Part shown: positions 124 to 63,958 of the stretch, one piece after another
Numbering within the stretch: the first letter of the stretch is position 1
Layout: each line of letters opens with the position of its first letter
NCBI GenBank assembly: GCA_026929865.2
Contig: JAMBYZ020000028.1
Location: 36,497-100,496, forward strand
Direction of reading: 5' to 3'
From: Hyperoplus lanceolatus
Lineage: Eukaryota; Chordata; Actinopteri; Uranoscopiformes; Ammodytidae
Length of the DNA stretch: 64,000 bases
The notes under the pieces: model-generated
Told to the model about the DNA's origin: nothing
The model's database searches: none
What the model saw: the letters and a program-made list of their open reading frames with translations, nothing else
Position numbers and translations under genes: made by a program

Positions 124-248
124 GTGACCTCATGGGGTGACCTCATGGGGTTGTGAACTTTGCCCCTGGAGTTGAATGACTCTGGAATAACAAGCAGGGC
201 GTTTTTTTAATTGAATCGAAATCATATCTAATTTGTCTCATATTTTCA
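124..248 (-). repeat. Reversed block 1 (short form)
   Basis: Only one reversed segment is present. The block is about 166 bp (one monomer) shorter than usual, as expected from recombination between the two GGGCGTTTTTTT tracts of a full block. It also carries AACAAGCAGGGCG, a small insertion. Confidence 0.88.
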
Positions 249-1738
249 AAATTAGATATGATTTTGGTTTCAATAAAAAAAAAAACGCCCTGTTATTCCA
301 GAGTCATTCCACTTCAGGGTCATAGTTCACAACCCCATGGGGTCCCCCAAGAAGTTTCAGGACATTCTGATGTGTAGTTTCAAAATAAAAGCCCACTAGA
401 TATTGAAAATATGAAAGAAATTAGATATGATTTTGGATTCAATTAAAAAAAAACCGCCCTGTTATTCCAGAGTCATTCCACTCCAGGGTCATAGTTCACA
501 ACCCCATGAGGTCCCCCAGGAAGTTTCAGGACATTCTGATGTTTAGTTTCAAAATAAAAGCCCACTAGATATTGAAAATATGAGAGAAATTAGATATGAT
601 TTTGGATTCAATTTTTAAAAAAACACCCTGTTATTCCAGAGTCATTCCACTCCAGCGTCATAGTCCACGACCCCTCGAGGCCGCACAAAAAGTTTCAGGA
701 CATTCTGATATGTAGTTTCAAAATTAAAGCGCACTAGATATTGAAAATATGAGAGAAATTACATATGATTTTGGATTACATTTTTAAAAAAACCGCCCTG
801 TTTTTCCAGTGTCATTCCACTCCAGGGTCATAGTTCACGACCCCATGAGGCCACACAAACAGTTTCAGGACATTCTGATGTGTAGTTTCAGAATAAAAGC
901 CCACTAGATATTGAAAATATGAGAGAAATTAGATATGATTTTGGATTTAATTTAAAAAAAAACGCCCTGTTATTCCAGAGTCATTCCACTCCAGGGTCAT
1001 AGTTCACGACCCCATGAGGCCACACAAACAGTTTCAGGACATTTAGATGTGTAGTTTCAGAATAAAAGCCCACTAGATATTGAAAATATGAGAGAAATTA
1101 GATATGATTTTGGATTCAATTAAAAAAAAAACGCCCTGTTATTCCAGAGTCATTCCACTCCAGGGTCTTAGTTCACGACCCCATGAGGCCGCACAAAAAG
1201 TTTCAGGACATTCTGATGTGTAGTTTCAGAATAAAAGCCCACTAGATATTGAAAATATGAGAGAAATTACATATGATTTTGGATTAAATTTTTTAAAAAA
1301 CGCCCTGTTATTCCAGAGTCATTCCACTCCAGGGTCATAGTTCACGACCCCATGAGGCCACACAAACAGTTTCAGGACATTCTGATGTGTAGTTTCAGAA
1401 TAAAAGCCCACTAGATATTGAAAATATGAGAGAAATTAGATATGATTTTGGATTCAATTAAAAAAAAAAACGCCCTGTTATTCCAGAGTCATTCCACTCC
1501 AGGGTCATAGTTCACGACCAAATGAGGCCACACAAACAGTTTCAGGACATTTAGATGTTTAGTTTCAGAATAAAAGCCCACTAGATATTGAAAATATCAG
1601 AGAAATTAGATATGATTTTGGATTAAATTTTTAAAAAAACACCCTGTTATTCCAGAGTCATTCCACTGCAGGGTCATAATTCACAACCCCATGAGGTCAC
1701 ACAAGAAGATTCAGGACATTCTGATGTGTACTTTCAGG

Positions 1739-2027
1739 GTGACCTCATGGGGTGACCTCATGGGGTTGTGAACTTTGACCCTGGAGTTGAATAACTCTGG
1801 AATAACAGGGCGTTTTTTTTAAATTGAATCCAAAATCATATCTAATTTCTCACATATTTTCAATATCAAGTGGGCTTTTATTCTGAAACTACACATCAGA
1901 ATGTCCTGAAACTTGTGTGTGGCCTCATGGGGTCGTGAACTATGACCCTGGAGTGGATTTTTCTGGAATAACAGGGCGTTTTTTTAATTGAATCCGAAAT
2001 CATATCTAATTCGTCTCATATTTTCAA
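1739..2027 (-). repeat. Reversed block 2
   Basis: Full length, preceded by F7-F5. The right junction is the alpha form, with CAAAACTAGATAA. Confidence 0.9.
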
Positions 2028-2669
2028 AACTAGATAATTTTTTGGATTCAATTAAAAAAAAAACGCCCTGTTATTCCAGAGTCATTCAACTCCAGGGTCA
2101 TAGTTCACGACCCCATGAGGTCCCCCAAGAAGTTTCAGGACATTCTGATGTGTAGTTTCAGAATAAAAGCCCATTAGATATTGAAAATATGAGAGAAATT
2201 AGATATGATTTTGGATTCAATTTAAAAAAAAACGCCCTGTTATTCCAGAGTCATTCCACTCCAGGGTCATAGTTCACGACCCCATGAGGTCCCCCAAGAA
2301 GTTTCAGGACATTCTGATGTGTAGTTTCAGAATAAAAGCCCACTAGATATTGAAAATATGAGAGAAATTAGATATGATTTTGGATTCAATTTAAAAAAAA
2401 ACGCCCTGTTATTCCAGAGTCATTCCACTCCAGGGTCATAGTTCACAACCCCATGAGGTCCCCCAAGAAGTTTCAGGACATTCTGATGTGTAGTTTCAAA
2501 ATAAAAGCCCACTAGATATTGAAAATATCAGAGAAATTAGATATGATTTTGGATTCAATTTTTAAAAAAACACCCTGTTATTCCAGAGTCATTCCACTGC
2601 AGGGTCATAATTCACAACCCCATGAGGTCACACAAGAAGATTCAGGACATTCTGATGTGTACTTTCAGG

Positions 2670-2957
2670 GTGACCTCATGGGGTGACCTCATGGGGTTGG
2701 GACACTTTGACCCTGGAGTTGAATGACTCTGGAATAACAGGGCGCTTTTTTTAAATTGAATCAAAATCATATCTAATTTCTCTCATATTTTCAATATCAG
2801 TGGGCTTTTATTCTGAAACTACATCAGAATGTCCTGAAACTTGTGTGAGGCCTCATGGGGTCGTGAACTATGACCCTGGAGGGGATTTTTCTGGAATAAC
2901 AGGACGGTTTTTTTTTATTGAATCCGAAATCATATCTAATTCGTCTCATATTTTCAA
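2670..2957 (-). repeat. Reversed block 3
   Basis: Carries the private GGTTGGGACACTTTG word shared (as GGTTGGACAC) with blocks 5 and 8. The right junction is beta. Confidence 0.9.
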
Positions 2958-3430
2958 AATTAGATATGATTTTGGATTCAATTTTTAAAAAAACGCCCTG
3001 TTATTCCAGAGTCATTCCAATCCAGGGTCATAGTTCACAACCCCATGAGGCCACACAAAAAGTTTCAGGACATTCTGATGTGTAGTTTCAGAATAAAAGC
3101 CCACTAGATATTGAAAATATGAGAGAAATTAGATATGATTTTGGATTCAATTTTTTAAAAAACGCCCTGTTATTCCAGAGTCATTCCACTCCAGGGTCAT
3201 AGTTCACAACCCCATGAAGCCACACAAAAAGTTTCAGGATATTCTGATGTGTACTTTCAAAATAAAAGCCCACTTGATATTGAAAATATCAGAGAAATTA
3301 GATATGATTTTGGATTCAATTTTTAAAAAAACACCCTGTTATTCCAGAGTCATTCCACTGCAGGGTCATAATTCACAACCCCATGAGGTCACACAAGAAG
3401 ATTCAGGACATTCTGATGTGTACTTTCAGG

Positions 3431-3718
3431 GTGACCTCATGGGGTGACCTCATGGGGTTGTGAACTTTGACCCTGGAGTTGAATAACTCTGGAATAACAG
3501 GGCGCTTTTTTAAATTGAATCCAAAATCATATCTAATTTCTCACATATTTTCAACATCAAGTGGGCTTTTTATTCTGAAACTACACATCAGAATGTCCTG
3601 AAACTTTGTGTGGCCTCATGGGGTCGTGAACTATGACCCTGGAGTGGAATTTTCTGGAATAAAGGGCGTTTTTTTTTAATTGAATCCGAAATCATATCTA
3701 ATTCGTCTCATATTTTCA
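3431..3718 (-). repeat. Reversed block 4
   Basis: Full length with an alpha junction. AATAACAGGGCG is shortened to AATAAAGGGCG. Confidence 0.9.
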
Positions 3719-4360
3719 AAACTAGATAATTTTTTGGATTCAATTAAAAAAAAAACGCCCTGTTATTCCAGAGTCATTCAACTCCAGGGTCATAGTTCAT
3801 GACCCCATGAGGTCCCCCAAGAAGTTTCAGGACATTCTGATGTGTAGTTTCAGAATAAAAGCCCATTAGATATTGAAAATATGAGAGAAATTAGATATGA
3901 TTTTGGATTCAATTTAAAAAAAAACGCCCTGTTATTCCAGAGTCATTCCACTCCAGGGTCATAGTTCACGACCCCATGAGGTCCCCCAAGAAGTTTCAGG
4001 ACATTCTGATGTGTAGTTTCAGAATAAAAGCCCACTAGATATTGAAAATATGAGAGAAATTAGATATGATTTTGGATTCAATTTAAAAAAAAACGCCCTG
4101 TTATTCCAGAGTCATTCCACTCCAGGGTCATAGTTCACAACCCCATGAGGTCCCCCAAGAAGTTTCAGGACATTCTGATGTGTAGTTTCAAAATAAAGCC
4201 CACTAGATATTGAAAATATCAGAGAAATTAGATATGATTTTGGATTCAATTTTTAAAAAAACACCCTGTTATTCCAGAGTCATTCCACTGCAGGGTCATA
4301 ATTCACAACCCCATGAGGTCACACAAGAAGATTCAGGACATTCTGATGTGTACTTTCAGG

Positions 4361-4644
4361 GTGACCTCATGGGGTGACCTCATGGGGTTGGACACTTTGA
4401 CCCTGGAGTTGAATGACTCTGGAATAACAGGGCGTTTTTTTAAATTGAATCCAAAATCATATCTAATTTCTCTCATATTTCAATGGAGTGGGCTTTTATT
4501 CTGAAACTACACATCAGAATGTCCTGAAACTTTGTGAGCCTCATGGGGTCGTGAACTATGACCCTGGAGGGGAATTTTTCTGGAATAACAGGACGTTTTT
4601 TTTTATTGAATCCGAAATCATATCTAATTGTCTCATATTTTCAA
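4361..4644 (-). repeat. Reversed block 5
   Basis: Has the GGTTGGACAC variant and a beta junction. A small deletion reduces CAATATCAAGTGGG to CAATGGAGTGGG. Confidence 0.88.
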
Positions 4645-5117
4645 AATTAGATATGATTTTGGATTCAATTTTAAAAAAAACGCCCTGTTATTCCAGAGTC
4701 ATTCCAATCCAGGGTCATAGTTCACAACCCCATGAGGCCACACAAAAAGTTTCAGGACATTCTGATGTGTAGTTTCAGAATAAAAGCCCACTAGATATTG
4801 AAAATATGAGAGAAATTAGATATGATTTTGGATTCAATTTTTAAAAAAACGCCCTGTTATTCCAGAGTCATTCCACTCCAGGGTCATAGTTCACAACCCC
4901 ATGAAGCCACACAAAAAGTTTCAGGATATTCTGATGTGTACTTTCAAAATAAAAGCCCACTTGATATTGAAAATATCAGAGAAATTAGATATGATTTTGG
5001 ATTCAATTTTTAAAAAAACACCCTGTTATTCCAGAGTCATTCCACTGCAGGGTCATAATTCACAACCCCATGAGGTCACACAAGAAGATTCAGGACATTC
5101 TGATGTGTACTTTCAGG

Positions 5118-5410
5118 GTGACCTCATGGGGTGACCTCATGGGGTTGTGGACTTTGACCCTGGAGTTGAATGACTCTGGAATAACAGGGCGTTTTTTTTA
5201 ATTGAATCCAAAATCATATCTAATTTCTCTCATATTTTCAATATCAAGTGGGCTTTTATTCTGAAACTACACATCAGAATGTCCTGAAACTTTGTGTGTG
5301 GCCTCATGGGGTCGTGAACTATGACCCTGGAGTGGAATTTTCTGGAATAACAGGGGCGTTTTTTTTTTAATTGAAATCGAAATCATATCTAATTCGTCTC
5401 ATATTTTCAA
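5118..5410 (-). repeat. Reversed block 6
   Basis: Has the GTTGTGGACTTTG variant shared with blocks 9, 11 and 15, and an alpha junction. Confidence 0.9.
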
Positions 5411-5826
5411 AATTAGATAATTTTTTGGATTCAATTAAAAAAAAAACGCCCTGTTATTCCAGAGTCATTCCACTCCAGGGTCATAGTTCACAACCCCATG
5501 AGGTCCTCCAAGAAGTTTCAGGACATTCTGATGTGTAGTTTCAAAATAAAAGCCCACTAGATATTGAAAATATGAGACAAATTAGATATGATTTTGGATT
5601 CAATTTAAAAAAAAAACCGCCCTGTTATTCCAGAGTCATTCCACTCCAGGGTCATAGTTCACGACCAAATGAGGCCACACAAACAGTTTCAGGACATTTA
5701 GATGTGTAGTTTCAGAATAAAAGCCCACTAGATATTGAAATGATCAGAGAAATTAGATATGATTTTGGATTCAATTTTTAAAAAAACACCCTGTTATTCC
5801 AGAGTCATTCCACTGCAGGGTCATAA

Positions 5827-5919
5827 TTCACAACCCCATGAGGTCACACAAGAAGATTCAGGACATTCTGATGTGTACTTTCAGGGTGACCTCATGGGGT
5901 GACCTCATGGGGTTGTGAA
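5827..5919. repeat. Left-junction hairpin (reference copy)
   Basis: The 21 bases at 5827-5847 (F5, from TTCACAACCCC to GGTCAC) are the exact reverse complement of 5899-5919. The spacer is 51 nt and contains a first copy of GTGACCTCATGGG (5886-5898), which could pair instead with the last 13 bases of the left arm. The same structure recurs at nearly every intact block. Confidence 0.88.
5886..5911 (+). repeat. 13-bp tandem duplication at the left breakpoint (reference copy)
   Basis: GTGACCTCATGGG occurs twice in a row, with the second copy leading into the reversed monomer. The same duplication marks the left edge of nearly all intact blocks. That points to a single founding rearrangement rather than repeated independent inversions. 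Confidence 0.9.
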
Positions 5920-5928
5920 CTTTGACCC
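5916..5928 (-). other. Stronger DR1-like word inside reversed block (reference copy)
   Basis: On the minus strand this reads GGGTCAAAGTTCA, close to the classic RXR/HNF4-type DR1 with an A spacer. It occurs in the first reversed segment of most blocks, including the two short ones (variant at 124-248). Confidence 0.4.
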
Positions 5929-6814
5929 TGGAGTTGAATAACTCTGGAATAACAGGGCGTTTTTTTAAATTGAATCCAAAATCATATCTAATTTCTCACA
6001 TATTTTCAATATAAATTGGGCTTTTATTCTGAAACTACACATCAGAATGTCCTGAAACTTTGTGTGGCCTCATGGGGTCGTGAACTATGACCCTGGAGTG
6101 GAATTTTTCTGGAATAACAGGGCGTTTTTTTAATTGAATCCGAAATCATATCTAATTCGTCTCATATTTTCAAAACTAGATAATTTTTTGGATTCAATAA
6201 AAAAAAAACGCCCTGTTATTCCAGAGTCATTCAACTCCAGGGTCATAGTTCACGACCCCATGAGGTCCCCCAAGAAGTTTCAGGACATTCTGATGTGTAG
6301 TTTCAGAATAAAAGCCCATTAGATATTGAAAATATGAGAGAAATTAGATATGATTTTGGATTCAATTAAAAAAAAAACGCCCTGTTATTCCAGAGTCATT
6401 CCACTCCAGGGTCATAGTTCACGACCCCATGAGGTCCCCCAAGAAGTTTCAGGACATTCTGATGTGTAGTTTCAGAATAAAAGCCCACTAGATATTGAAA
6501 ATATGAGAGAAATTAGATATGATTTTGGATTCAATTTAAAAAAAAACGCCCTGTTATTCCAGAGTCATTCCACTCCAGGGTCATAGTTCACAACCCCATG
6601 AGGTCCCCCAAGAAGTTTCAGGACATTCTGATGTGTAGTTTCAAAATAAAAGCCCACTAGATATTGAAAATATCAGAGAAATTAGATATGATTTTGGATT
6701 CAATTTTTAAAAAAACACCCTGTTATTCCAGAGTCATTCCACTGCAGGGTCATAATTCACAACCCCATGAGGTCACACAAGAATATTCAGGACATTCTGA
6801 TGTGTACTTTCAGG

Positions 6815-7108
6815 GTGACCTCATGGGGTGACCTCATGGGGTTGGACACTTTGACCCTGGAGTTGAATGACTCTGGAATAACAGGGCGTTTTTTTTAAAT
6901 TGAATCCAAAATCATATCTAATTTCTCTCATATTTTCAATATCGAGTGGGCTTTTATTCTGAAACTACACATCAGAATGTCCTGAAACTTTGTGTGAGGC
7001 CTCATGGGGTCGTGAACTATGACCCTGGAGGGGAATTTTTCTGGAATAACAGGACGTTTTTTTTTTTTATTGAATCCGAAATCATATCTAATTCGTCTCA
7101 TATTTTCA
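6815..7108 (-). repeat. Reversed block 8
   Basis: Has the GGTTGGACAC variant with an alpha junction, and an unusually long T tract near 7057-7068. Confidence 0.9.
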
Positions 7109-7751
7109 AAATTAGATAATTTTTTGGATTCAATTAAAAAAAAAATGCCCTGTTATTCCAGAGTCATTCCACTCCAGGGTCATAGTTCAAAACCCCATGA
7201 GGTCCCCCAAGAAGTTTCAGGACATTCTGATGTGTAGTTTCAAAATAAAAGCCCACTAGATATTGAAAATATGAGAGAAATTAGATATGATTTTGGATTC
7301 AATTTTTAAAAAAACGCCCTGTTATTCCAGAGTCATTCCAATCCAGGGTCATAGTTCACGACCCCATGAGGCCACACAAAAAGTTTCAGGACATTCTGAT
7401 GTGTAGTTTCAGAATAAAAGCCCACTAGATATTGAAAATATGAGAGAAATTAGATATGATTTTGGATTCAATTTTTAAAAAAACGCCCTGTTATTCCAGA
7501 GTCATTCCACTCCAGGGTCATAGTTCACAACCCCATGAAGCCACACAAAAAGTTTCAGGATATTCTGATGTGTACTTTCAAAATAAAAGCCCACTTGATA
7601 TTGAAAATATCAGAGAAATTAGATATGATTTTGGATTCAATTTTTAAAAAAACACCCTGTTATTCCAGAGTCATTCCACTGCAGGGTCATAATTCACAAC
7701 CCCATGAGGTCACACAAGAAGATTCAGGACATTCTGATGTGTACTTTCAGG

Positions 7752-8042
7752 GTGACCTCATGGGGTGACCTCATGGGGTTGTGGACTTTGACCCTGGAGT
7801 TGAATGACTCTGGAATAACAGGGGGTTTTTTTAAATTGAATCCAAAATCATATCTAATTTCTCTCATATTTTCAATATCAAGTGGGCTTTATTCTGAAAC
7901 TACACATCAGAATGTCCTGAAACTTTGTGTGTGGCCTCATGGGGTCGTGAACTATGACCCTGGAGTGGAATTTTCTGGAATAACAGGGCGTTTTTTTTTT
8001 AATTGAAATCGAAATCATATCTAATTCGTCTCATAATTTCAA
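7752..8042 (-). repeat. Reversed block 9
   Basis: Has the GTGGACTTTG variant, CAGGGGGTTTT in place of CAGGGCGTTTT, and an alpha junction. Confidence 0.88.
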
Positions 8043-8853
8043 AATTAGATAATTTTTTGGATTCAATTAAAAAAAAAACGCCCTGTTATTCCAGAGTCAT
8101 TCCACTCCAGGGTCATAGTTCACGACCCCATGAGGTCCCCCAAGAAGTTTCAGGACATTCTGATGTGTAGTTTCAGAATAAAAGCCCACTAGATATTGAA
8201 AATATGAGAGAAATTAGATATGATTTTGGATTCAATTTAAAAAAAAATGCCCTGTTATTCCAGAGTCATTCCACTCCAGGGTCATAGTTCACAACCCCAT
8301 GAGGTCCCCCAAGAAGTTTCAGGACATTCTGATGTGTAGTTTCAAAATAAAAGCCCACTAGATATTGAAAATATGAGAGAAATTAGATATGATTTTGGAT
8401 TCAATTTTTAAAAAAACGCCCTGTTATTCCAGAGTCATTCCACTCCAGGGTCATAGTTCACGACCCCATGCGGCCACACAAAAAGTTTCAGGACATTCTG
8501 ATGTGTAGTTTCGGAATAAAAGCCCACTAGATATTGAAAATATGAGAGAAATTAGATATGATTTTGGATTCAATTTTTAAAAAAACGCCCTGTTATTCCA
8601 GAGTCATTCCACTCCAGGGTCATAGTTCACAACCCCATGAAGCCACACACAAAGCTTCAGGATATTCTGATGTGTACTTTCAAAATAAAAGCCCACTTGA
8701 TATTGAAAATATCAGAGAAATTAGATATGATTTTGGATTCAATTTTTAAAAAAACACCCTGTTATTCCAGAGTCATTCCACTGCAGGGTCATAATTCACA
8801 ACCCCATGAGGTCACACAAGAAGATTCAGGACATTCTGATGTGTACTTTCAGG

Positions 8854-9140
8854 GTGACCTCATGGGGTGACCTCATGGGGTTGGGAACTTTGACCCTGGA
8901 GTTGAATGACTCTGGAATAACAGGGCGTTTTTTAAATTGAATCCAAAATCATATCTAATTTCTCTCATATTTTCAATATCGAGTGGGCTTTTATTCTGAA
9001 ACTACACATCAGAATGTCCTGAAACTTTGTGTGTGGCCTCTTGGGGTCGTGAACTATGACCCTGGAGTGGAATTTTCTGGTATAACAGGGCGTTTTTTTT
9101 TATTGAATCAAATCATATCTAATTCGTCTCATATTTTCAA
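8854..9140 (-). repeat. Reversed block 10
   Basis: The private words GGCCTCTTGGGG and downstream AATTCCCTG match block 13 at a 4.65-kb offset. Alpha junction. Confidence 0.9.
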
Positions 9141-9852
9141 AATTAGATAATTTTTTGGATTCAATTAAAAAAAAAATTCCCTGTTATTCCAGAGTCATTC
9201 CACTCCAGGGTCATAGTTCAAAACCCCATGAGGTCCCCCAAGAAGTTTCAGGACATTCTGATGTGTAGTTTCAAAATAAAAGCCCACTAGATATTGAAAA
9301 TATCAGAGAAATTAGATATGATTTTGGATTCAATTTTTAAAAAAACTCCCTGTTATTCCAGAGTCATTCCACTCCAGGGTCATAGTTCACGACCCCATGA
9401 GGCCACACAAAAGTTTCAGGACATTCTGATGTGTAGTTTCAGAATAAAAGCCCACTAGATATTGAAAATATGAGAGAAATTAGATATGATTTTGGATTCA
9501 ATTTAAAAAAAAAACGCCCTGTTATTCCAGAGTCATTCCACTCCAGGGTCATAGTTCACAACCCCATGAGGTCACCCAAGAAGTTTCAGGACATTCTGAT
9601 GTGTAGTTTCAAAATAAAAGCCCACTAGATATTGAAAATATGAGAGAAATTAGATATGATTTTGGATTCAATTTTTAAAAAAACGCCCTGTTATTCCAGA
9701 GTCATTCCACTCCAGGGTCATAGTTCACGACCCCATGAGGCCACACAAAAAGTTTCAGGACATTCTGATGTGTAGTTTCAGAATAAAAGCCCACTAGATA
9801 TTGAAAATATGAGAGAAATTAGATATGATTTTGGATTCAATTTTTAAAAAAA

Positions 9853-10021
9853 CGCCCTGTTATTCCAGAGTCATTCCACTCCAGGGTCATAGTTCACAAC
9901 CCCATGAAGCCACACAAAAAGTTTCAGGATATTCTGATGTGTACTTTCAAAATAAAAGCCCACTTGATATTGAAAATATCAGAGAAATTAGATATGATTT
10001 TGGATTCAATTTTTAAAAAAA
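9853..10021 (+). repeat. Type F4 monomer, lead-in to a reversed block
   Basis: Diagnostic words are ATGAAGCCACAC, CAGGATATTC, GTGTACTTTCAAAAT, CCCACTTGATATTG and AATATCAGAG. Clean copies lie directly before type F5 and a reversed block, for example near 3214, 4901, 7535, 8637, 9904, 13286, 27485, 40960, 41912 and 42998. A few (31130, 31625, 44918) have been separated from F5 by rearrangement. Confidence 0.85.
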
Positions 10022-10120
10022 CACCCTGTTATTCCAGAGTCATTCCACTGCAGGGTCATAATTCACAACCCCATGAGGTCACACAAGAAGATTCAGGACA
10101 TTCTGATGTGTACTTTCAGG
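10022..10120 (+). repeat. Type F5 truncated monomer at left junction (reference copy)
   Basis: The monomer starts ACACCCTG (AACAGCCTG in the 29-37 kb copies) and has CACTGCAGGGTCATAATTC, GAGGTCACACAAGAAGATTC and GTGTACTTTCAG. It then stops and the reversed block begins. It is always about 99 bp long and almost always found next to a block. It provides the left arm of the left-junction hairpin. Confidence 0.88.
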
Positions 10121-10408
10121 GTGACCTCATGGGGTGACCTCATGGGGTTGTGGACTTTGACCCTGGAGTTGAATGACTCTGGAATAACAGGGAGGTTTTT
10201 TAAATTGAATCCAAAATCATATCTAATTCCTCTCATATTTTCAATATCAAGTGGGCTTTTTATTCTGAAACTACACATCAGAATGTCCTGAAACTTTGTG
10301 TGTGGCTCATGGGGTCGTGAACTATGACCCTGGAGTGGAATTTTCTGGAATAACAGGGCGTTTTTTTAATTGAATCCGAAATCATATCTAATTCGTCTCA
10401 TATTTTCA
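10121..10408 (-). repeat. Reversed block 11
   Basis: Intact paralogue of the scrambled block 14. It has the GTGGACTTTG variant and an alpha junction. Confidence 0.9.
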
Positions 10409-11629
10409 AAACTAGATAATTTTTTGGATTCAATTTTCAAAAAAACGCCCTGTTATTCCAGAGTCATTCCACTCCAGGGTCATAGTTCACGACCCCATGA
10501 GGCCACACAAAAAGTTTCAGGACATTCTGATGTGTAGTTTCAGAATAAAAGCCCACTAGATATTGAAAATATGAGAGAAATTAGATATGATTTTGGATTC
10601 AATTTTAAAAAAACGCCCTGTTATTCCAGAGTCATTCCACTCCAGGGTCATAGTTCACGACCCCATGAGGCCACAGAAAAGTTTCAGGACATTCTGATGT
10701 GTAGTTTCAGAATAAAAGCCCACTAGATATTGAAAATATGAGAAAAATTAGATATGATTTTGGATTCAATTTAAAAAAAAAATGCCCTGTTATTCCAGAG
10801 TGATTCCACTCCAGGGTCATAGTTCACAACCCCATGAGGTCCCCCAAGAAGTTTCAGGACATTCTGATGTGTAGTTTCAAAATAAAAGCCCACTAGATAT
10901 TGAAAATATGAGAGAAATTAGATATGATTTTGGATTCAATTTAAAAAAAAACTCCCTGTTATTCCAGAGTCATTCCACTCCAGGGTCATAGTTCACGACA
11001 CCATGAGGTCCCCCAAGAAGTTTCAGGACATTGTGATGTGTAGTTTCAGAATAAAAGCCCACTAGATATTGAAAATATGAGAGAAATTAGATATGATTTT
11101 GATTTCAATTTAAAATAAACGCCCTGTTATCCCAGAGTCATTCCACTCCAGGGTCATAGTTCACAACCCCATGAGGTCACCCAAGAAGTTTCAGGACATT
11201 CTGATGTGTAGTTTCAAAATAAAAGCCCACTAGATATTGAAAATATGAGAGAAATTAGATATGATTTTGGATTCAATTTTTAAAAAAACGCCCTGTTATT
11301 CCAGAGTCATTCCACTCCAGGGTCATAGTTCACAACCCCATGAGGTCCCCCAAGAAGTTTCAGGACATTCTGATGTGTAGTTTCAAAATAAAAGCCCACT
11401 AGATATTGAAAATATGAGAGAAATTAGATATGATTTTGGATTAAATTTTTAAAAAAACCTCCCTGTTATTCCAGAGTCATTCCACTCCAGGGTCATAGTT
11501 CACAACCCCATGAGGTCCCCCAAGAAGTTTCAGGACATTCTGATGTTTAGTTTCAGAATAAAAGCCCACTAGATATTGAAAATATGAGACAAATTAGATA
11601 TGATTTTGGATTCAATTTAAAAAAAAAAA

Positions 11630-25970: not shown

Positions 25971-26002
25971 AGATATGATTTTGGATTCAATTTAAAAAAA
26001 AA

Positions 26003-51398: not shown

Positions 51399-53061
51399 AA
51401 ATTATATATGATTTTGGATTCAATAAAAAAAAAACGCCCTGTTATTCCAGAGTCATTCCACTCCAGGGTCATAGTTCACAACCCCATGAGGCCACACACA
51501 AAGTTTCAGGACATGCTGATGTGTAGTTTCAGAATAAAAGCCCACTAGATATTGAAAATATGAGAAAAATTAGATATGATTTTGGATTCAATAAAAAAAA
51601 AACGCCCTGTTATTCCAGAGTCATTCCACTCCAGGGTCATAGTTCACAATCCCATGAGGTCCCCCAAGAAGTTTCAGGACATTCTGATGTGTAGTTTCAA
51701 AATAAAAGCCCACTAGATATTGGAAATATGAGAGAAATTAGATATGATTTTGGATTCAATTTAAAAAAAAAACGCCCTGTTATTCCAGAGTCATTCCACT
51801 CCAGGGTCATAGTCCACGACCCCTCGAGGCCCCACAAAAAGTTTCAGGACATTCTGATGTGTAGTTTCAAAATTAAAGCCCACTAGATATTGAAAATATG
51901 AGAGAAATTACATATGATTTTGGATTAAATGGTTTAAAAAAAAACGCCCTGTTATTCCAGAGTCATTCCACTCCAGGGTCATAGTTCACAACCCCATGAG
52001 GTCACCCAAGAAGTTTCAGGACATTCTGATGTGTAGTTTCAAAATAAAAGCCCACTAGATATTGAAAATATGAGAGAAATTAGATATGATTTTGGATTCA
52101 ATTTGAAAAAAAAACGCCCTGTTATTCCAGAGTCATTCCACTCCTGCGTCATAGTCCACGACCCCTCGAGGCCACACAAAAAGTTTCAGGACATTCTGAT
52201 GTGTAGTTTCAAAATTAAAGCGCACTAGATATTGAAAATATGAGAGAAATTACATATGATTTTGGATTAAATTTTTAAAAAAAACGCCCTGTTATTCCAG
52301 AGTCATTCCACTCCAGGGTCATAGTTCACAACCCCATGAGGTCACCCAAGAAGTTTCAGGACATTCTGATGTGTAGTTTCAAAATAAAAGCCCACTAGAT
52401 ATTGAAAATATGAGAGAAATTAGATATTATTTTGGATTCAATTTGAAAAAAAAACGCCCTGTTATTCCAGAGTCATTCCACTCCAGGGTCATAGTTCACA
52501 ACCCCATGAGGTCCCCCAAGAACTTTCAGGACATTCTGATGTGTAGTTTCAAAATAAAAGCCCACTAGATATTGAAAATATGAGAGAAATTAGATATGAT
52601 TTTGGATTCAATTTTTAAAAAAACGCCCTGTTATTCCAGAGTCATTCCACTCCAGGGTCATAGCTCACGACCCCATGAGGCCACACAAAAAGTTTCAGGA
52701 CATTCTGATGTGTAGTTTCAGAATAAAAGCCCACTAGATATTGAAAATATGAGAGAAATTAGATATGATTTTGGATTAAATTTTTTTAAAAAACGCCCTG
52801 TTATTCCAGAGTCATTCCACTCCAGGGTCATAGTTCACGACCCCATGAAGCCACACAAAAAGTTTCAGGATATTCTGATGTGTAGTTTCAGAATAAAAGC
52901 CCACTAGATATTGAAAATATGAGAGAAATTAGATATGATTTTGGATTCAATTTAAAAAAAAACGCCCTGTTATTCCAGAGTCATTCCACTGCAGGGTCAT
53001 AATTCACAACCCCATGAGGTCACACAAGAAGATTCAGGACATTCTGATGTGTACTTTCAGG

Positions 53062-53351
53062 GTGACCTCATGGGGTGACCTCATGGGGTTGTGAACTTTG
53101 ACCCTGGAGTTGAATGACTCTGGAATAACAAGGCGTTTTTTAAATTGAATCCAAAATCATATCTAATTTCTCTCATATTTTCAATATCAAGTGGGCTTTT
53201 ATTCTGAAACTACACATCAGAATGTCCTGAAACTTTGTGTGTGGCCTCATGGGGTCGTGAACTATGACCCTGGAGTGGAATTTTCTGGAATAACAGGGCG
53301 TTTTTTTTTTAATTGAATCCGAAATCATATCTAATTTGTCTCATATTTTAA
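53062..53351 (-). repeat. Reversed block 39
   Basis: Full length with a delta junction. Paralogue of block 36 at 5988 bp. Confidence 0.9.
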
Positions 53352-56300
53352 AAATTAGATATGATTTTGGATTCAATAAAAAAAAAAACGCCCTGTTATT
53401 CCAGAGTCATTCCACTCCAGGGTCATAGTTCACAACCCCATGAGGTCCCCCAAGAAGTTTCAGGACATTCTGATGTGTAGTTTCAAAATAAAAGCCCACT
53501 AGATATTGGAAATATGAGAGAAATTAGATATGATTTTGGATTCAATTTAAAAAAAAACGCCCTGTTATTCCAGAGTCATTCCACTCCAGGGTCATAGTTC
53601 ACAACCCCATGAGGTCCCCCAAGAACTTTCAGGACATTCTGATGTGTAGTTTCAAAATAAAAGCCCACTAGATATTGAAAATATGAGAGAAATTAGATAT
53701 GATTTTGGATTCAATTTAAAAAAAAACGCCCTGTTATTCCAGAGTCATTCCACTCCAGGGTCATAGTCCACAACCCCTCGAGGCCACACAAAAAGTTTCA
53801 GGACATTCTGATGTGTAGTTTCAAAATAAAAGCCCACTAGATATTGAAAATATGAGAAAAATTAGATATGATTTTGGATTCAATTTAAAAAAAAACGCCC
53901 TGTTATTCCAGAGTCATTCCACTCCAGGGTCATAGTTCACAACCCCATGAGGTCCCCCAAGAACTTTCAGGACATTCTGATGTGTAGTTTCAAAATAAAA
54001 GCCCACTAGATATTGAAAATATGAGAGAAATTAGATATGATTTTGGATTACATTTTTAAAAAAACGCCCTGTTATTCCAGAGTCATTCCACTCCAGGGTC
54101 ATAGTTCACGACCCCATGAGGCCACACAAACAGTTTCAGGACATTCTGATGTGTAGTTCCAGAATAAAAGCCCACTAGATATTGAAAATATGAGAGAAAT
54201 TAGATATGATTTTGGATTCAATTTAAAAAAAAACTCCCTGTTATTCCAGAGTCATTCCACTCCAGGGTCATAGTTCACAACCCCATGAGGTCACCCAAGA
54301 AGTTTCAGGACATTCTGATGTGTAGTTTCAAAATAAAAGCCCACTAGATATTGAAAATATGAGAGAAATTAGATATGAGTTTGGATTCAATTTAAAAAAA
54401 AAAACCCTGTTATTCCAGAGTCATTCCACTCCAGCGTCATAGTCCACGACCCCTCGAGGCCACACAAAAAGTTTCAGGACATTCTGATGTGTAGTTTCAG
54501 AATAAAAGCCCACTAGATATTGAAAATATGAGAGAAATTAGATATGATTTTGGATTCAATTTAAAAAAAAACGCCCTGTTATTCCAGAGTCATTCCACTC
54601 CAGGGTCATAGTTCACAACCCCATGAGGTCCCCCAAGAACTTTCAGGACATTCTGATGTGTAGTTTCAAAATAAAAGCCCACTAGATATTGAAAATATGA
54701 GAGAAATTAGATATGGTTTTGTATTAAATTTTTTAAAAAAACACCCTGTTATTCCAGAGTCATTCCACTCCTGCGTCATAGTCCACGACCCCTCGAGGCC
54801 ACACAAAAAGTTTCAGGACATTCTGATGTGTAGTTTCAAAATTAAAGCGCACTAGATATTGAAAATATGAGAGAAATTACATATGATTTTGGATTAAATT
54901 TTAAAAAAAAACGCCCTGTTATTCCAGAGTCATTCCACTCCAGGGTCATAGTTCACAACCCCATGAGGTCACCCAAGAAGTTTCAGGACATTCTGATGTG
55001 TAGTTTCAAAATAAAAGCCCACTAGATATTGAAAATATGAGAGAAATTAGATATGATTTTGGATTCAATTTGAAAAAAAAACGCCCTGTTATTCCAGAGT
55101 CATTCCACTCCAGGGTCATAGTTCACAACCCCATGAGGTCCCCCAAGAACTTTCAGGACATTCTGATGTGTAGTTTCAAAATAAAAGCCCACTAGATATT
55201 GAAAATATGAGAGAAATTAGATATGATTTTGGATTCAATTTAAAAAAAAACGCCCTGTTATTCCAGAGTCATTCCACTCCAGGGTCATAGTTCACGACCC
55301 CATGAGGCCACACAAAAAGTTTCAGGACATTCTGATGTGTAGTTTCAGAATAAAAGCCCACTAGATATTGAAAATATGAGAGAAATTAGATATGATTTTG
55401 GATTCAATTTAAAAAAAAACGCCCTGTTATTCCAGAGTCATTCCACTCCAGGGTCATAGTTCACAACCCCATGAGCCACACAAGAAGTTTCAGGACATTC
55501 TGATGTGTAGTTTCAGAATAAAAGCCCACTAGATATTGAAAATATGAGAGAAATTAGATATGATTTTGGATTCAATTTAAAAAAAAACGCCCTGTTATTC
55601 CAGAGTCATTCCACTCCAGGGTCATAGTTCACAACCCCATGAGGTCCCCCAAGAAGTTTCAGGACATTCTGATGTGTAGTTTCAAAATAAAAGCCCACTA
55701 GATATTGAAAATATGAGATAGAAATTAGATATGATTTTGGATTCAATTTAAAAAAAAACGCCCTGTTATTCCAGAGTCATTCCACTCCAGGGTCATAGTT
55801 CACAACCCCATGAGGTCCCCCAAGAACTTTCAGGACATTCTGATGTGTAGTTTCAAAATAAAAGCCCACTAGATATTGAAAATATGAGAGAAATTAGATA
55901 TGATTTTGGATTCAATTTTAAAAAAAAACGCCCTGTTATTCCAGAGTCATTCCCTCCAGGGTCATAGTTCACAACCCCATGAGGTCCACCCAAAAGCTTT
56001 CAGGACATTCTGATGTGTAGTTTCAAAATAAAAGCCCACTAGATATTGAAAATATGAGAGAAATTAGATATGATTTTGGATTCAATTAAAAAAAAAACGC
56101 CCTGTTATTCCAGAGTCATTCCACTCCAGGGTCATAGTTCACAACCCCATGAGGTCACCCAAGAAGTTTCAGGACATTCTGATGTGTAGTTTCAAAATAA
56201 AAGCCCACTAGATATTGAAAATATGAGAGAAATTAGATATGATTTTGGATTCAATTTTAAAAAAAACGCCCTGTTATTCCAGAGTCATTCCACTCCAGGG

Positions 56301-56435
56301 TCATAGTTCACAACCCCATGAGGCCACACAAAAAGTTTCAGGACATTCTGATGTGTAGTTTCAGAATAAAAGCCCACTAGATATTGAAAATATGAGAGAA
56401 ATTAGATATGATTTTGGATTCAATTTAAAAAAAAA

Positions 56436-56603
56436 CGCCCTGTTATTCCAGAGTCATTCCACTCCAGGGTCATAGTTCACGACCCCATGAGGCCACACAA
56501 AAAGTTTCAGGACATTCTGATGTGTAGTTTCAGAATAAAAGCCCACTAGATATTGAAAATATGAGAGAAATTAGATATGATTTTGGATTCAATTTAAAAA
56601 AAA
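56436..56603 (+). repeat. Type F1 monomer (reference copy)
   Basis: This is the commonest forward type. Diagnostic words are CACGACCCC, ATGAGGCCACACAAAAAG and TAGTTTCAGAATAAAAG. The pair ATTCTGA...TCAGAAT forms a 7-bp inverted repeat with a 9-nt loop. GGGTC...GACCC forms a second small inverted repeat, and both are intact in this type. A sub-variant has ACAAACAG in place of ACAAAAAG. Confidence 0.85.
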
Positions 56604-57301
56604 CGCCCTGTTATTCCAGAGTCATTCCACTCCAGGGTCATAGTTCACGACCCCATGAGGTCCACACAAGAAGTTTCAGGACATTCTGATGTGTAGTTTC
56701 AGGGGGGGGTGGGGGGTGGGAATAAAAGCCCACTAGATATTGAAAATATGAGAGAAATTAGATATGATTTTGGATTCAATTTTTAAAAAAAAACGCCCTG
56801 TTATTCCAGAGTCATTCCACTCCAGGGTCATAGTTCACAACCCCATGAGGTCAGCCAAGAAGTTTCAGGACATTCTGATGTGTAGTTTCAAAATAAAAGC
56901 CCACTAGATATTGAAAATATGAGAGAAATTAGATATGATTTTGGATTCAATTTTTAAAAAAAACACCCTGTTATTCCAGAGTCATTCCACTCCAGGGTCA
57001 TAGTTCACGACCCCATGAGGCCACACAAAAAGTTTCAGGACATTCTGATGTGTAGTTTCAGAATAAAAGCCCACTAGATATTGAAAATATGAGAGAAATT
57101 AGATATGATTTTGGATTCAATTTAAAAAAAAACGCCCTGTTATTCCAGAGTCATTCCACTCCAGGGTCATAGTTCACAACCCCATGAGGTCACCCAAGAA
57201 GTTTCAGGACATTCTGATGTGTAGTTTCAAAATAAAAGCCCACTAGATATTGAAAATATGAGAGAAATTAGATATGATTTTGGATTCAATTTAAAAAAAA
57301 A

Positions 57302-57470
57302 CGCCCTGTTATTCCAGAGTCATTCCACTCCAGGGTCATAGTTCACAACCCCATGAGGTCACCCAAGAAGTTTCAGGACATTCTGATGTGTAGTTTCAAA
57401 ATAAAAGCCCACTAGATATTGAAAATATGAGAGAAATTAGATATGATTTTGGATTCAATTTAAAAAAAAA
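57302..57470 (+). repeat. Type F3 monomer (reference copy)
   Basis: This resembles F2 but has GAGGTCACCCAAGAAG. Adjacent copies at 57133-57640 are nearly identical to each other, which suggests very recent local amplification. Confidence 0.8.
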
Positions 57471-57501
57471 CGCCCTGTTATTCCAGAGTCATTCCACTCC
57501 A

Positions 57502-57514
57502 GGGTCATAGTTCA
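57502..57514 (+). other. Nuclear-receptor DR1-like word (reference copy in forward monomer)
   Basis: GGGTCATAGTTCA reads as two AGGTCA-like half-sites spaced by one base. It recurs in most F1-F4 monomers. A match by eye is not evidence of binding. Confidence 0.4.
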
Positions 57515-59627
57515 CAACCCCATGAGGTCACCCAAGAAGTTTCAGGACATTCTGATGTGTAGTTTCAAAATAAAAGCCCACTAGATATTGAAAATATGAG
57601 AGAAATTAGATATGATTTTGGATTCAATTTAAAAAAAAAACGCCCTGTTATTCCAGAGTCATTCCACTCCAGGGTCATAGTTCACAACCCCATGAGGCCC
57701 CCCAAGAAGTTTCAGGACATTCTGATGTGTAGTTTCAAAATAAAAGCCCACTAGATATTGAAAATATGAGAGAAATTAGATATGATTTTGGATTCAATTT
57801 AAAAAAAAAACGCCCTGTTATTCCAGAGTCATTCCACTCCAGGGTCATAGTTCACAACCCCATGAGGCCACACAAAAAGTTTCAGGACATTCTGATGTGT
57901 AGTTTCAAAATAAAAGCCCACTAGATATTGAAAATATGAGAGAAATTAGATATGATTTTGGATTCAATTTTTAAAAAAAACGCCCTGTTATTCCAGAGTC
58001 ATTCCACTCCAGGGTCATAGTTCACGACCCCATGAGGCCACACAAAAAGTTTCAGGACATTCTGATGTGTAGTTTCAGAATAAAAGCCCACTAGATATTG
58101 AAAATATGAGAGCAATTAGATATGATTTTGGATTCAATTTAAAAAAAAACGCCCTGTTATTCCAGAGTCATTCCACTCCAGGGTCATAATTCACAACCCC
58201 ATGAGGTCACCCAAGAAGTTTCAGGACATTCTGATGTGTAGTTTCAGGGACCATAAAAGGCCCACCTATGGGATATTGAAACTATGACGAGAAGTTGAAT
58301 GAGATATGATTTTAATTGGATCCAATTTATAACTATAACTCCCTGTTATTCACAGAGGGTCATTCCACTCCAGGGTCATAGTTCACAACCCCATGAGGTC
58401 ACAAGAAGTTTCAGGACATTCAGGATTTGTGTAGTTTCAAAATAAAAGCCCACTAGATTTTGTAAAATATGAGAGAAATTAGATATGATTTTGGATTCAA
58501 TATAAAAAAAAACGCCCTGTTATTCCAGAGTCATTCCACTCCAGGGTCATAGTTCACAACCCCATGAGGTCCCCCAAGAAGTTTCAGGACATTCTGATGT
58601 GTAGTTTAAAAATAAAAGCCCACTAGATATTGAAAATATGAGAGAAATTAGATATGATTTTGGATTCAATTTAAAAAAAAACGCCCTGTTATTCCAGAGT
58701 CATTCCACTCCAGGGTCATAGTTCACAACCCCATGAGGTCACCCAAGAAGTTTCAGGACATTCTGATGTGTAGTTTCAAAATAAAAGCCCACTAGATATT
58801 GAAAATATGAGAGAAATTAGATATGATTTTGGATTCAATTTTAAAAAAAACGCCCTGTTATTCCAGAGTCATTCCACTCCAGGGTCATAGTTCACAACCC
58901 CATGAGGTCACCCAAGAAGTTTCAGGACATTCTGATGTGTAGTTTCAAAATAAAAGCCCACTAGATATTGAAAATATGAGAGAAATTAGATATGATTTTG
59001 GATTCAATTTGAAAAAAAAACGCCCTGTTATTCCAGAGTCATTCCACTCCAGGGTCATAGTTCACAACCCCATGAGGTCCCCCAAGAACTTTCAGGACAT
59101 TCTGATGTGTAGTTTCAAAATAAAAGCCCACTAGATATTGAAAATATGAGAGAAATTAGATATGATTTTGGATTCAATTTTTAAAAAAACGCCCTGTTAT
59201 TCCAGAGTCATTCCACTCCAGGGTCATAGCTCACGACCCCATGAGGCCAGACAAAAAGTTTCAGGACATTCTGATGTGTAGTTTCAGAATAAAAGCCCAC
59301 TAGATATTGAAAATATGAGAGAAATTAGATATGATTTTGGATTAAATTTTAAAAAAAACGCCCTGTTATTCCAGAGTCATTCCACTCCAGGGTCATAGTT
59401 CACGACCCCATGAAGCCACACAAAAAGTTTCAGGATATTCTGATGTGTAGTTTCAGAATAAAAGCCCACTAGATATTGAAAATATGAGAGAAATTAGATA
59501 TGATTTTGGATTCAATTTAAAAAAAAAACGCCCTGTTATTCCAGAGTCATTCCACTGCAGGGTCATAATTCACAACCCCATGAGGTCACACAAGAAGATT
59601 CAGGACATTCTGATGTGTACTTTCAGG

Positions 59628-59640
59628 GTGTTCATGGGGT
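59628..59640 (-). repeat. Reversed block 40 (scar only)
   Basis: After a normal F5 lead-in, only GTGTTCATGGGG remains before forward AAAAGCCCACTGG. It is a deletion derivative or a consensus collapse. Confidence 0.65.
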
Positions 59641-61168
59641 AAAAGCCCACTGGATATTGAATAATAGGAGCTTAGAAATTAGATATAATTTTGGATTCAA
59701 TTTTAAAAAAAGTGGCCCTGTTATTCCAGAGTCATTCCACTCCAGGGTCATAGTTCACAACCCCATGAGGCCACACAAACAGTTTCAGGACATTCTGATG
59801 TGTAGTTTCAGAATAAAATCCCACTCATATAATTTGAAAATATTTTCAAAATTAGATATGATTTTGGATTCAATAAAAAAAAAAAGGCCCTGTTATTCCA
59901 GAGTCATTCCACTCCAGGGTCATAGTTCACAACCCCATGAGGTCCCCCAAGAAGTTTCAGGACATTCTGATGTGTAGTTTAAAAATAAAAGCCCACTGGA
60001 TATTGGAAATATGAGAGAAATTAGATATGATTTTGGATTCAATTAAAAAAAAAACGCCCTTTTAAACCAGAGTCATTCCACTCCAGGGTCATAGTTCACA
60101 ACCCCATGAGGTCCCCCAAGAAGTTTCAGGACATTCTGATGTGTAGTTTCAAAATAAAAGCCCACTAGATATTGAAAATATGAGAGAAATTAGATATGAT
60201 TTTGGATTCAATTTCTAAAAAAACTCCCTGTTATTCCAGAGTCATTCCACTCCAGGGTCATAGTTCACGACCCCATGAGGCCACACAAAAAGTTTCAGGA
60301 CATTCTGATGTGTAGTTTCAAAATAAAAGCCCACTAGATATTGAAAATATGAGAGAAATTAGATATGATTTTGGATTCAATTTAAAAAAAAACGCGCTGT
60401 TATTCCAGAGTCATTCCACTGCAGGGTCATAGTTCACGACCCCATGAGGCCACACAAAAAGTTTCAGGACATTATGATGTGTAGTTTCAGAATAAAAGCC
60501 CACTAGATATTGAAAATATGAGAGAAATTAGATATTATTTTGGATTCAATTTTAAAAAAAACGCCCTGTTATTCCAGAGTCATTCCACTCCAGGGTCATA
60601 GTTCACAACCCCATGAGGTCACCCAAGAAGTTTCAGGACATTCTGATGTGTAGTTTCAAAATAAAAGCCCACTAGATATTGAAAATATGAGAGAAATTAG
60701 ATATGAGTTTGGATTCAATTTAAAGAAAAACGCCCTGTTATTCCAGAGTCATTCCACTCCAGCGTCATAGTCCACAACCCCTCGAGGCCACACAAAAAGT
60801 TTCAGGACATTCTGATGTGTAGTTTCAAAATAAAAGCCCACTAGATATTGAAAAAATGAGAAAAATTAGATATGATTTTGGATTCAATTTAAAAAAAAAC
60901 GCCCTGTTATTCCAGAGTCATTCCACTCCAGGGTCATAGTTCACGACCCCATGAGGTCCCCCAAGACGTTTCAGGACATTCTGATGTGTAGTTTCAGAAT
61001 AAAAGCCCACTAGATATTGAAAATATGAGAGAAATTAGATATGATTTTGGATTCAATTTAAAAAAAAAACGCCCTGTTATTCCAGAGTCATTCCACTGCA
61101 GGGTCATAATTCACAACCCCATGAGGTCATCCAAGAATATTCAGGACATTCTGATGTGTACTTTCAGG

Positions 61169-61462
61169 GTGACCTCATGGGGTGACCTCATGGGGTTGTG
61201 AACTTTGACCCTGGAGTTGAATGACTCTGTAATAACAGGGCTTTTTTTTTAAATTGAATCCAAAATCATATCTAATTTCTCTCATATTTTCAATATCAAG
61301 TGGGCTTTTATTCTGAAACTACACATCAGAATGTCCTGAAACTTTGTGTGTGGCCTCATGGGGGCGTGAACTATGACCCTGGAGTGTAATTTTTCTGGAA
61401 TAACAGGGCGTTTTTTTTTTAATTGAATCCGAAATCATATCTAATTTGTCTCATATTTTCAA
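61169..61462 (-). repeat. Reversed block 41
   Basis: Full length with a beta junction. TCTGTAATAACAGGGC and GGGGGCGTG are private variants. Confidence 0.9.
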
Positions 61463-63142
61463 AATTAGATATGATTTCTGATTCAATAAAACAAAAAAAC
61501 GCCCTGTTATTCCAGAGTCATTCCACTCCAGGGTCATAGTTCACGACCCCATGAGGCCAGGCAAAAAGTTTCAGGACATTCTGATGTGTAGTTTCAGAAT
61601 AAAAGCCCACTAGATATTGAAAATATGAGAGAAATTACATATGATTTTGGATTAAATTTTTTAAAAAACGCCCTGTTATTCCAGAGTCATTCCACTCCAG
61701 GGTCATAGTTCACAACCCCATGAGGCCACACAAACAGTTTCAGGACATTCTGATGTGTAGTTTCAGAATAAAAGCCCACTAGATATTGAAAATATGAGAG
61801 AAATTAGATATGATTTTGGATTCAATTTTAAAAAAAACGCCCTGTTATTCCAGAGTCATTCCACTCCAGGGTCATAGTTCACGACCCCATGAGGCCACAC
61901 AAACAGTTTCAGGACCTTCTGATGTGTAGTTTCAGAATAAAAGCCCACTAGATATTGAAAATATGAGAGAAATTAGATATGATTTTGGATTCAATTTAAA
62001 AAAAAACGCCCTGTTATTCCAGAGTCTTTCCACTCCAGGGTCATAGTTCACGACCCCATGAGGCCACACAAAAAGTTTCAGGACATTCTGATGTGTAGTT
62101 TCAGAATAAAAGCCCACTAGATATTGAAAATATGAGAGAAATTACATATGATTTTGGATTAAATTTTTTAAAAAACGCCCTGTTATTCCAGAGTCATTCC
62201 ACTCCAGGGTCATAGTTCACAACCCCATGAGGTCCCCCAAGAAGTTTCAGGACATTCTGATGTGTAGTTTCAAAATAAAAGCCCACTAGATATTGAAAAT
62301 ATGAGAGAAATTAGATATGATTTTGGATTCAATTTAAAAAAAAACGCCCTGTTATTCCAGAGTCATTCCACTCCAGGGTCATAGTTCACGACCCCATGAG
62401 GCCACACAAAAAGTTTCAGGACATTCTGATGTGTAGTTTCAGAATAAAAGCCCACTAGATATTGAAAATATGAGAGAAATTAGATATGATTTTGGATTCA
62501 ATTTAAAAAAAAAACGCCCTGTTATTCCAGAGTCATTCCACTCCAGGGTCATAGTTCACAACCCCATGAGGTCACCCAATAAGTTTCAGGACATTCTGAT
62601 GTGTAGTTTCGAAATAAAAGCCCACTAGATATTGAAAATATGAGAGAAATTAGATATGATTTTGGATAAAATTTAAAAAAAAACGCCTTGTTATTCCAGA
62701 GTCATTCCACTCCAGGGTCATAGTTCACGACCCCATGAGGCCAAACAAAAAGTTTCAGGACATTCTGTTGTGTAGTTTCAGAATAAAAGCCCACTAGATA
62801 TTGAAAATATGAGAGAAATTAGATATGATTTTGGATTCAATTTTAAAAAAAACGCCCTGTTATTCCAGAGTCATTCCACTCCAGGGTCATAGTTCACGAC
62901 CCCATGAGGCCACACAAACAGTTTCACGACCTTCTGATGTGTAGTTTCAGAATAAAAGCCCACTAGATATTGAAAATATGAGAGAAATTAGATATGATTT
63001 TGGATTCAATTTAAAAAAAAACGCCCTGTTATTCCAGAGTCTTTCCACTCCAGGGTCATAGTTCGACGGGGGGGAAAACTGAGGTCACAACCCCATGAGG
63101 TCACCCAAGAAGTTTCAGGACATTCTGATGTGTACTTTCAGG

Positions 63143-63188
63143 GTGACCTCATGGGGTGACCTCATGGGGTTGTGAACTTTGACCCTGG
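63143..63188 (-). repeat. Reversed block 42 (minimal, 46 bp)
   Basis: Keeps both 13-mers and TTGTGAACTTTGACCCTGG, then joins forward AATTAGATATG directly. The F5 lead-in is replaced by an F3-like copy preceded by a G-rich insertion at 63068-63074. Confidence 0.82.
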
Positions 63189-63670
63189 AATTAGATATGA
63201 TTTTGGATTCAATTTAAAAAAAAACGCCCTGTTATTCCAGAGTCATTCCACTCCAGGGTCATAGTTCACGAACCCCATGAGGTCCCCCAAGAAGTTTCAG
63301 GACATTCTGATGTGTAGTTTCAAAATAACCAGGGCTTAATTAGATATTGAAAATATCAATGAGAGAAATTAGATATGATTTTGGATTCAATTTAAAAAAA
63401 AACGCCCTGTTATTCCAGAGTCATTCCACTCCAGGGTCATAGTTCACGACCCCATGAGGCCACACAAAAAGTTTCAGGACATTCTGATGTGTAGTTTCAG
63501 AATAAAAGCCCACTAGATATTGAAAATATGAGAGAAATTAGATATGATTTTGGATTCAATTTTTAAAAAAACGCCCTGTTATTCCAGAGTCATTCCACTG
63601 CAGGGTCATAATTCACAACCCCATGAGGTCACACAAGAAGATTCAGGACATTCTGATGTGTACTTTCAGG

Positions 63671-63958
63671 GTGACCTCATGGGGTGACCTCATGGGGTTG
63701 TGAACTTTGACCCTGGAGTTGAATGACTCTGGAATAGCAGGGCGTTTTTAAATTGAATCCAAAATCATATCTAATTTCTCTGATGATTTTCAATATCAAG
63801 GTGGACTTTATTCTGAAACTACACATCAAATGCCAAAAACTTGTGTGGGCCTCATGGGGTGTAAACTTCTGTTGACCCCTGAGATTGGAATTTTTCTGGA
63901 ATAACAGGGCGTTTTTTTTTGAATCAGAAATCCTGTCTAATTTGTCTCATATTTTCAA
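63671..63958 (-). repeat. Reversed block 43
   Basis: Full length but indel-rich in the second segment (AAATGCCAAAAACTTG). Right junction beta-like. Confidence 0.82.

Follow-up and report, generated by a model that had tools for sequence, protein, structure and literature searches.

Introduction

Primate alpha satellite is built from a ~170-bp monomer arranged in multi-monomer units and subject to unequal exchange; its units run mostly head-to-tail and have a set length in each array. Long dyad symmetries inside satellite repeats are "not so common", according to the sections consulted of a study of Tribolium satellites (PMC13081366). The closest layout in the literature examined is described there: TmSat2 of Tribolium madens, a 704-bp repeat with ~300-bp inverted segments that is intermixed with TmSat1 (PMC13081366). 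The same sections cite the 1061-bp major satellite of Tribolium brevicornis, whose ~470-bp inverted segments also give long dyad symmetry. Here we analyse a 64-kb stretch of DNA from the fish Hyperoplus lanceolatus (contig JAMBYZ020000028.1, positions 36,497 to 100,496, forward strand), referred to throughout as the window and numbered from its first base. It carries a 169-bp AT-rich satellite whose forward array is interrupted at 43 sites by a reversed block, intact or degraded. The array is a real, uncommon member of an already known kind of satellite, that with inverted subunits. Judged by their sequence, the blocks seem to descend from one inversion. They probably go back to a single fold-back or template-switch event that was multiplied by unequal exchange and local duplication, with hairpin fold-back probably degrading the consensus inside them.

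Results

Orientation and junctions of the reversed blocks

Tandem Repeats Finder (TRF) follows the 169-bp period along the whole window (1..64000, plus strand), and 272 near-full forward monomers were analysed. A search of the window with nhmmer and a monomer profile gave 474 matches, 358 on the plus strand and 116 on the minus strand, the latter grouped in short islands within the forward array. This orientation calling confirms the reversed islands that a preliminary description of the window had reported. The plus-to-minus switches leave the forward sequence at monomer position 97 in 32 of 45 cases and enter the reverse sequence at model position 68 in 35 of 45. On the way back, exit is at 113 (28 of 45) and re-entry at 131 (31 of 45). 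Switches off these positions are mostly in noisy blocks that were split by the profile. The fixed structure and fixed breakpoints proposed earlier are thus borne out. A 44-mer spanning the left junction occurs 36 times in the window with at most two mismatches, and a 31-mer spanning the right junction 36 times with at most six, neither of them once on the minus strand. Chance would not give such counts.

In the usual island, forward sequence runs to position 97 and is followed by a 13-bp duplication, reverse sequence, and forward sequence again from position 131. The reverse part completes a partial monomer, runs through a full one and ends after ~55 bp of a third. In a typical example, monomer positions 1-97 (hereafter left97; 1642..1738, plus strand) carry characteristic variants including a PstI site (CTGCAG). 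The duplication, GGGTGACCTCATG repeated 2.3 times, occupies 1737..1766 (plus strand; TRF), and its 24-base core has exact copies at 35 places. The 288-bp block itself (1739..2026, minus strand) contains the 13-bp duplication, the reverse of monomer positions ~60 to 1, a whole monomer and positions ~169 to 116, after which forward sequence resumes at position 131 in the right flank (2027..2064, plus strand). Of the 290 bp of the block consensus, 277 align to the satellite and the remaining 13 are the satellite-derived duplication; with no non-satellite part, insertion of a transposable element is rejected.

Left97 differs from the forward consensus at eight positions. The window has 44 PstI sites, 35 of them at the head of stretches whose alignment to the block unit is better than that to a forward array. 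The other nine are those of the two short blocks, 14701 (noisy block), 17456 (within a noisy block) and 59555 (collapsed), together with 22322, 31262, 49086 and 60419, which are in forward monomers without a block.

A block is called standard where a called left junction and a right junction give a length of 279-294 bp. Thirty blocks fall in this class, in agreement with the ~290 bp first reported, and with 2 short, 9 noisy, 1 truncated and 1 collapsed site they make up the 43 sites of the preliminary description. Its end points, 124 and 63958, coincide with the first block and with the right junction of the last.

Copies of a single inversion

The blocks are read as copies of one inversion, rather than as recurrent inversions, because they have (i) the same junctions; (ii) the same 13-bp duplication; (iii) a near-identical left97; (iv) substitutions found only in blocks. 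Over the 30 standard copies, left97 substitutions amount to 0.76%, and a 28-mer with two left97 variants occurs 32 times, every time at one of the 43 sites. The block-only variants GTCAAAGTTCAC and GATTTCGGATTC have no forward occurrence, against 28 and 20 in reverse, respectively. Of the 33 inner reversed monomers (profile matches that cover 155 or more model positions), 29 have another reversed monomer as their closest relative. Block subfamilies with common variants, their members named by left junction, alternate locally: 1738/3430/5885 and 2669/4360/6814 in the first 8 kb. A further subfamily, 30397/34791/35726, has at least eight variants in common. Forward-monomer haplotypes recur along with the blocks; the string 4 4 11, for example, lies between blocks three times. 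Subfamilies and repeating haplotypes indicate that the blocks were spread as array segments duplicated locally.

Several observations count against so simple a descent. For four of the 33 inner reversed monomers, the closest relative is a forward monomer (25770 and 36568, noisy; 38882 and 50077, standard). The 38-bp right flank diverges by 7.5%, far above left97, and co-inheritance would therefore be one-sided, extending to the left only. Some of the left97 differences are also present in ordinary forward monomers, and site 19426 lacks the left97 variants. This ordinary left flank, and the sheer number of sites, would suit many independent inversions at one hot spot with identical breakpoints. 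The duplication, the left97 variants and the block-only substitutions would then need repeated new origin, and independent recurrent inversion, which we consider exceedingly improbable, is rejected on these common features. The blocks are thus recurrent, as first described, in the sense of being many copies but not in that of separate events.

Inverted chimeras are known in long-read libraries, and sequence at some sites is garbled, as would be expected if the blocks were artefacts of chimeric reads or assembly. A pure assembly artefact is rejected, however, given the identical breakpoints, the block-specific substitutions and the inherited block subfamilies, and we give an artefactual origin almost no credence.

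Spacing

From block to block the distance ranges from ~530 bp to ~6.6 kb over the whole list, and the full forward monomers per block number from 2 to over 30. Of 22 neighbouring standard pairs, 21 are spaced by 255+n*169 bp to within 12 bp, n taking values of 3 to 14. Such a fit is expected where junctions are fixed and the monomer is regular, and adds no separate proof. The single misfit, 43208 to 45638, is off by 22 bp; this pair contains a non-satellite insert (43703-43985). Because blocks are separated by differing numbers of forward monomers, higher-order units exist only locally, and none holds for the whole array. Constant unit length, as in higher-order repeats of the alpha-satellite type, was not found, n being 3-14 over the 22 pairs and longer elsewhere. 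The earlier proposal that the block is part of the higher-order unit thus holds for the block travelling with its left 97 bp and for local multi-block units, and fails for one unit common to the array.

The longest stretch without a clean reversed block, 53351-61168, covers ~7.8 kb and 45.8 copies (TRF). It contains only the collapsed site.

Variation inside the blocks

Private changes were compared in the 30 standard of the 43 copies, a set that leaves out the noisiest. The block middle was taken as unit positions 156-358 and the edges as the outer 58 bp at the start and 29 bp at the end. Private substitutions per base-copy number 103/6090 in the middle, 14/2610 at the edges, 12/2910 in left97 and 5/1140 in the right flank (middle against edges, Fisher p 6e-6), and private indel columns number 66, 8, 2 and 2, respectively. 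Without the five noisiest copies (n=25), substitutions and indels are 58 and 40 in the middle, 3 and 2 at the edges and 8 and 0 in left97. Forward monomers have private rates per base of 0.0028 (substitutions) and 0.0029 (indels) over the 272 near-full copies, and 0.0021 and 0.0018 over the 250 outside 16.2-22.3 kb. These rates are not strictly comparable with those of the 30 blocks, as more copies leave fewer singletons; the fair control is left97 in the same 30 copies.

A uniform cause such as age or absence of homogenisation is disfavoured by the clean edges, which should suffer too. Nanopore reads are less accurate at inverted duplicates, with low accuracy and missed bases beginning at the inversion junction, according to the portion consulted of a study of yeast and human reads (PMC7229812). 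The likeness to the blocks is the loss of accuracy at an inversion, seen there in reads and deduced here from assembled sequence. With fold-back in the pore, errors would set in only after a read has gone some distance into the block; as reads come from both ends, the two strands would fail together in the middle only. This step from the published artefact to a middle-only pattern is our own. Noisy copies 36492 and 25660, which mix forward and reverse sequence, are compatible with a failed consensus. From the assembly, then, part of the apparent decay may be technical, and the 9 noisy and 1 collapsed sites may be damaged consensus of standard blocks and not biological remnants.

This explanation also meets difficulties. 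Left flanks can be noisy too, at 20677 (75/90 match), 25660 (23 errors) and 63143 (G-rich garbling). The noise is partly regional, forward monomers at 16-26 kb being noisy as well, while 14771 is garbled amid clean forward monomers. Block errors correlate only moderately with noise in neighbouring forward monomers (Spearman 0.38, p 0.026, over 35 of the 43 sites, leaving out the two short blocks, the collapsed and truncated sites, 14771, 17416, 19426 and 20677).

Alternatively, interior noise and remnants would be real, long hairpins mutating, breaking and decaying in vivo so that blocks are born intact and then lost. Short and truncated blocks with clean ends (51277, 63143) fit such decay, as does the interior peak of private changes. 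Yet the block edges are almost as clean as the flank; some noisy copies interleave forward and reverse sequence letter by letter or contain G-runs, which resembles consensus failure; and forward monomers beside several noisy blocks, though not beside 14771, are noisy too. We hold decay in vivo to be possible but on balance unlikely. Degenerate sites do exist, as the word "remnant" in the preliminary description implied; some may nevertheless be sequencing or consensus damage, given the mixed strands and G-rich stretches at such sites and the middle-peaked noise of the standard copies.

Between 16000 and 26000, private indels are frequent in forward monomers too (as many as ~3 per monomer in a 2-kb bin), which suggests poor consensus quality or a segment of greater age. 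Lesser rises occur at 46-48, 58-60 and 62-64 kb. G-rich garbled stretches in otherwise regular satellite are found at 14771-14936 and ~63065-63080.

Folding

A segment of 593 nt around the second block, folded as single-stranded DNA, gave -245.8 kcal/mol (z -37; one block of the 43 was folded), against -40.1 kcal/mol (z +1.5) for a single forward stretch of the same length; these figures are computed folding potential and not proof of hairpins in cells.

Inventory of sites

Left junctions were called mechanically at 37 sites, namely 30 standard, 2 short and 5 noisy (14771, 16295, 20677, 21804, 36492). Six were added by eye: 17416, 19426, 25660 and 47074 (noisy), 63143 (truncated) and 59628 (collapsed). 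The calls at the collapsed site and at noisy sites 17416 and 19426 are matters of judgement.

Besides the example described above, standard blocks, all on the minus strand, lie at 2670..2956, 3431..3718, 4361..4643, 5118..5409, 5886..6172, 6815..7108, 7752..8041, 8854..9139, 10121..10408, 11897..12184, 13503..13788, 26948..27227, 27704..27986, 30398..30691, 32180..32458, 34792..35083, 35727..36017, 38808..39094, 40077..40364, 41177..41463, 42108..42396, 43209..43496, 45639..45919, 50003..50295, 53062..53350 and 61169..61461, and, with a noisy interior, at 24432..24718, 29475..29754 and 63671..63957.

The noisy blocks, likewise on the minus strand, differ in their flanks. G-rich garbling follows a 97/97 left flank at 14771..14936, and the left flank is 97/97 with an insertion at 16295..16597. 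Left97 is not fully recognisable at 17416..17574, the characteristic variants are missing from the flank of 19426..19604, and the flank is noisy at 20677..20987. The block at 21804..22101 has a disturbed right end. Mixed forward and reverse sequence fills 25660..25969, where the left flank is also noisy, and 36492..36808, where left97 matches at 96/97, as it does at 47074..47332.

The truncated block (63143..63206, minus strand) jumps directly to the forward sequence of the right junction. At the collapsed site (59531..59640, plus strand), left97 is followed by a few junction bases and a return to forward sequence. The two short blocks (124..248 and 51277..51398, minus strand) are far apart and each is shorter by one monomer length; they may go back to a single shortened form that was propagated, or may each have lost the monomer length separately.

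Other searches

The window gave no Rfam match at the gathering score, and the tRNA search found none. Exact satellite patterns had no match in bacterial, archaeal or viral contigs, a result with little bearing on animals or plants. Searching the literature with satellite sequence words and "169 bp" repeat terms returned nothing evidently related by title or abstract. The non-satellite insert overlaps an open frame (43756-44001, minus strand) of 81 residues, the first of them satellite. The frame presumably resembles the C-terminus of an animal long interspersed nuclear element (LINE) reverse-transcriptase protein; Pfam gave one sub-threshold match only.

Discussion

We propose that an ancestral fold-back or template switch during replication or repair made the first block. 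Copying would have quit the forward template after position 97, taken the opposite strand for ~290 bp and come back at 131, replacing forward positions 98-130 (~33 bp) provided that it returned into the same monomer. A single slip at the entry point would account for the 13-bp duplication. Unequal exchange and local duplication of array segments would then have multiplied the block with its left flank, the spacing drifting by whole monomers. This would leave long inverted repeats one after another along the array; their loops are short, ~14 nt on the right and ~40 nt on the left (by eye), and the repeats could extrude hairpins or cruciforms. The same fold-back probably also worsens long-read consensus within blocks and so leaves many copies garbled or collapsed.

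Junction microhomology of ~1-3 bp (by eye) does not discriminate between mechanisms and to that extent weakens the proposal. The segment at the block entry is not an exact reverse complement of the block's own left97, and would therefore have been copied from another monomer or changed since. A plain two-break inversion with small deletions (~16 and ~62 bp), multiplied likewise, is compatible with the junction positions. It requires two deletions in addition to the 13-bp duplication, and we think it unlikely. Template switching is preferred because of the 13-bp slip and the short loops.

By default, the blocks are regarded as a neutral by-product of array turnover. Two putative roles may be considered. 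Blocks might be kept as centromere punctuation, with hairpins or the conserved junction recruiting centromere proteins or phasing chromatin. The 169-bp period is close to nucleosomal length and the dyad folding is strong, both in keeping with such a role. Conserved inversion sites, moreover, are proposed to matter in Tribolium in the sections consulted (PMC13081366). Against this, spacing of ~530 bp to 6.6 kb makes irregular punctuation, and recent co-amplification predicts left97 conservation equally well; a centromeric role seems quite improbable. In the second, the block would be a self-propagating element whose hairpin promotes template switching or breakage that copies the block and its left flank, driving array turnover and perhaps centromere identity, an idea we consider very doubtful.

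A single event that can be traced along the array by its junctions and flank is a natural marker for the spread of satellite segments. If the technical account of the noise is true, assemblies may garble or drop such blocks, and counts of degenerate satellite units need to be checked for decay lying mainly inside inverted segments.

Primate alpha satellite higher-order repeats resemble this array in their ~170-bp monomer, multi-monomer units and, as proposed here, unequal exchange; the array differs from them in its built-in reversed block and varying unit length. In the Tribolium brevicornis satellite, as cited in the sections consulted of the Tribolium study, the dyad lies within the repeat unit itself, whereas units here vary in length (PMC13081366). 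With TmSat2, as described there, the array has in common subunits related to the neighbouring satellite, some of them inverted, a ~300-bp long imperfect inverted repeat among related satellite arrays, and conserved inversion sites (PMC13081366). The reversed segment derives from the same satellite by its reverse monomer matches and its alignment to the forward consensus, and the inversion sites are conserved between copies (32/45 exits at 97, 31/45 re-entries at 131). Multi-kb inverted subarrays (a macro-dyad) are absent from the window, where the longest clean reversed stretch is 294 bp. Unlike the TmSat2 arrangement described in those sections, one reversed block interrupts a directional array in place and forms no arrays of its own. 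The monomer is 169 bp here and ~110 bp in the Tribolium system (PMC13081366), and the likeness described is one of layout.

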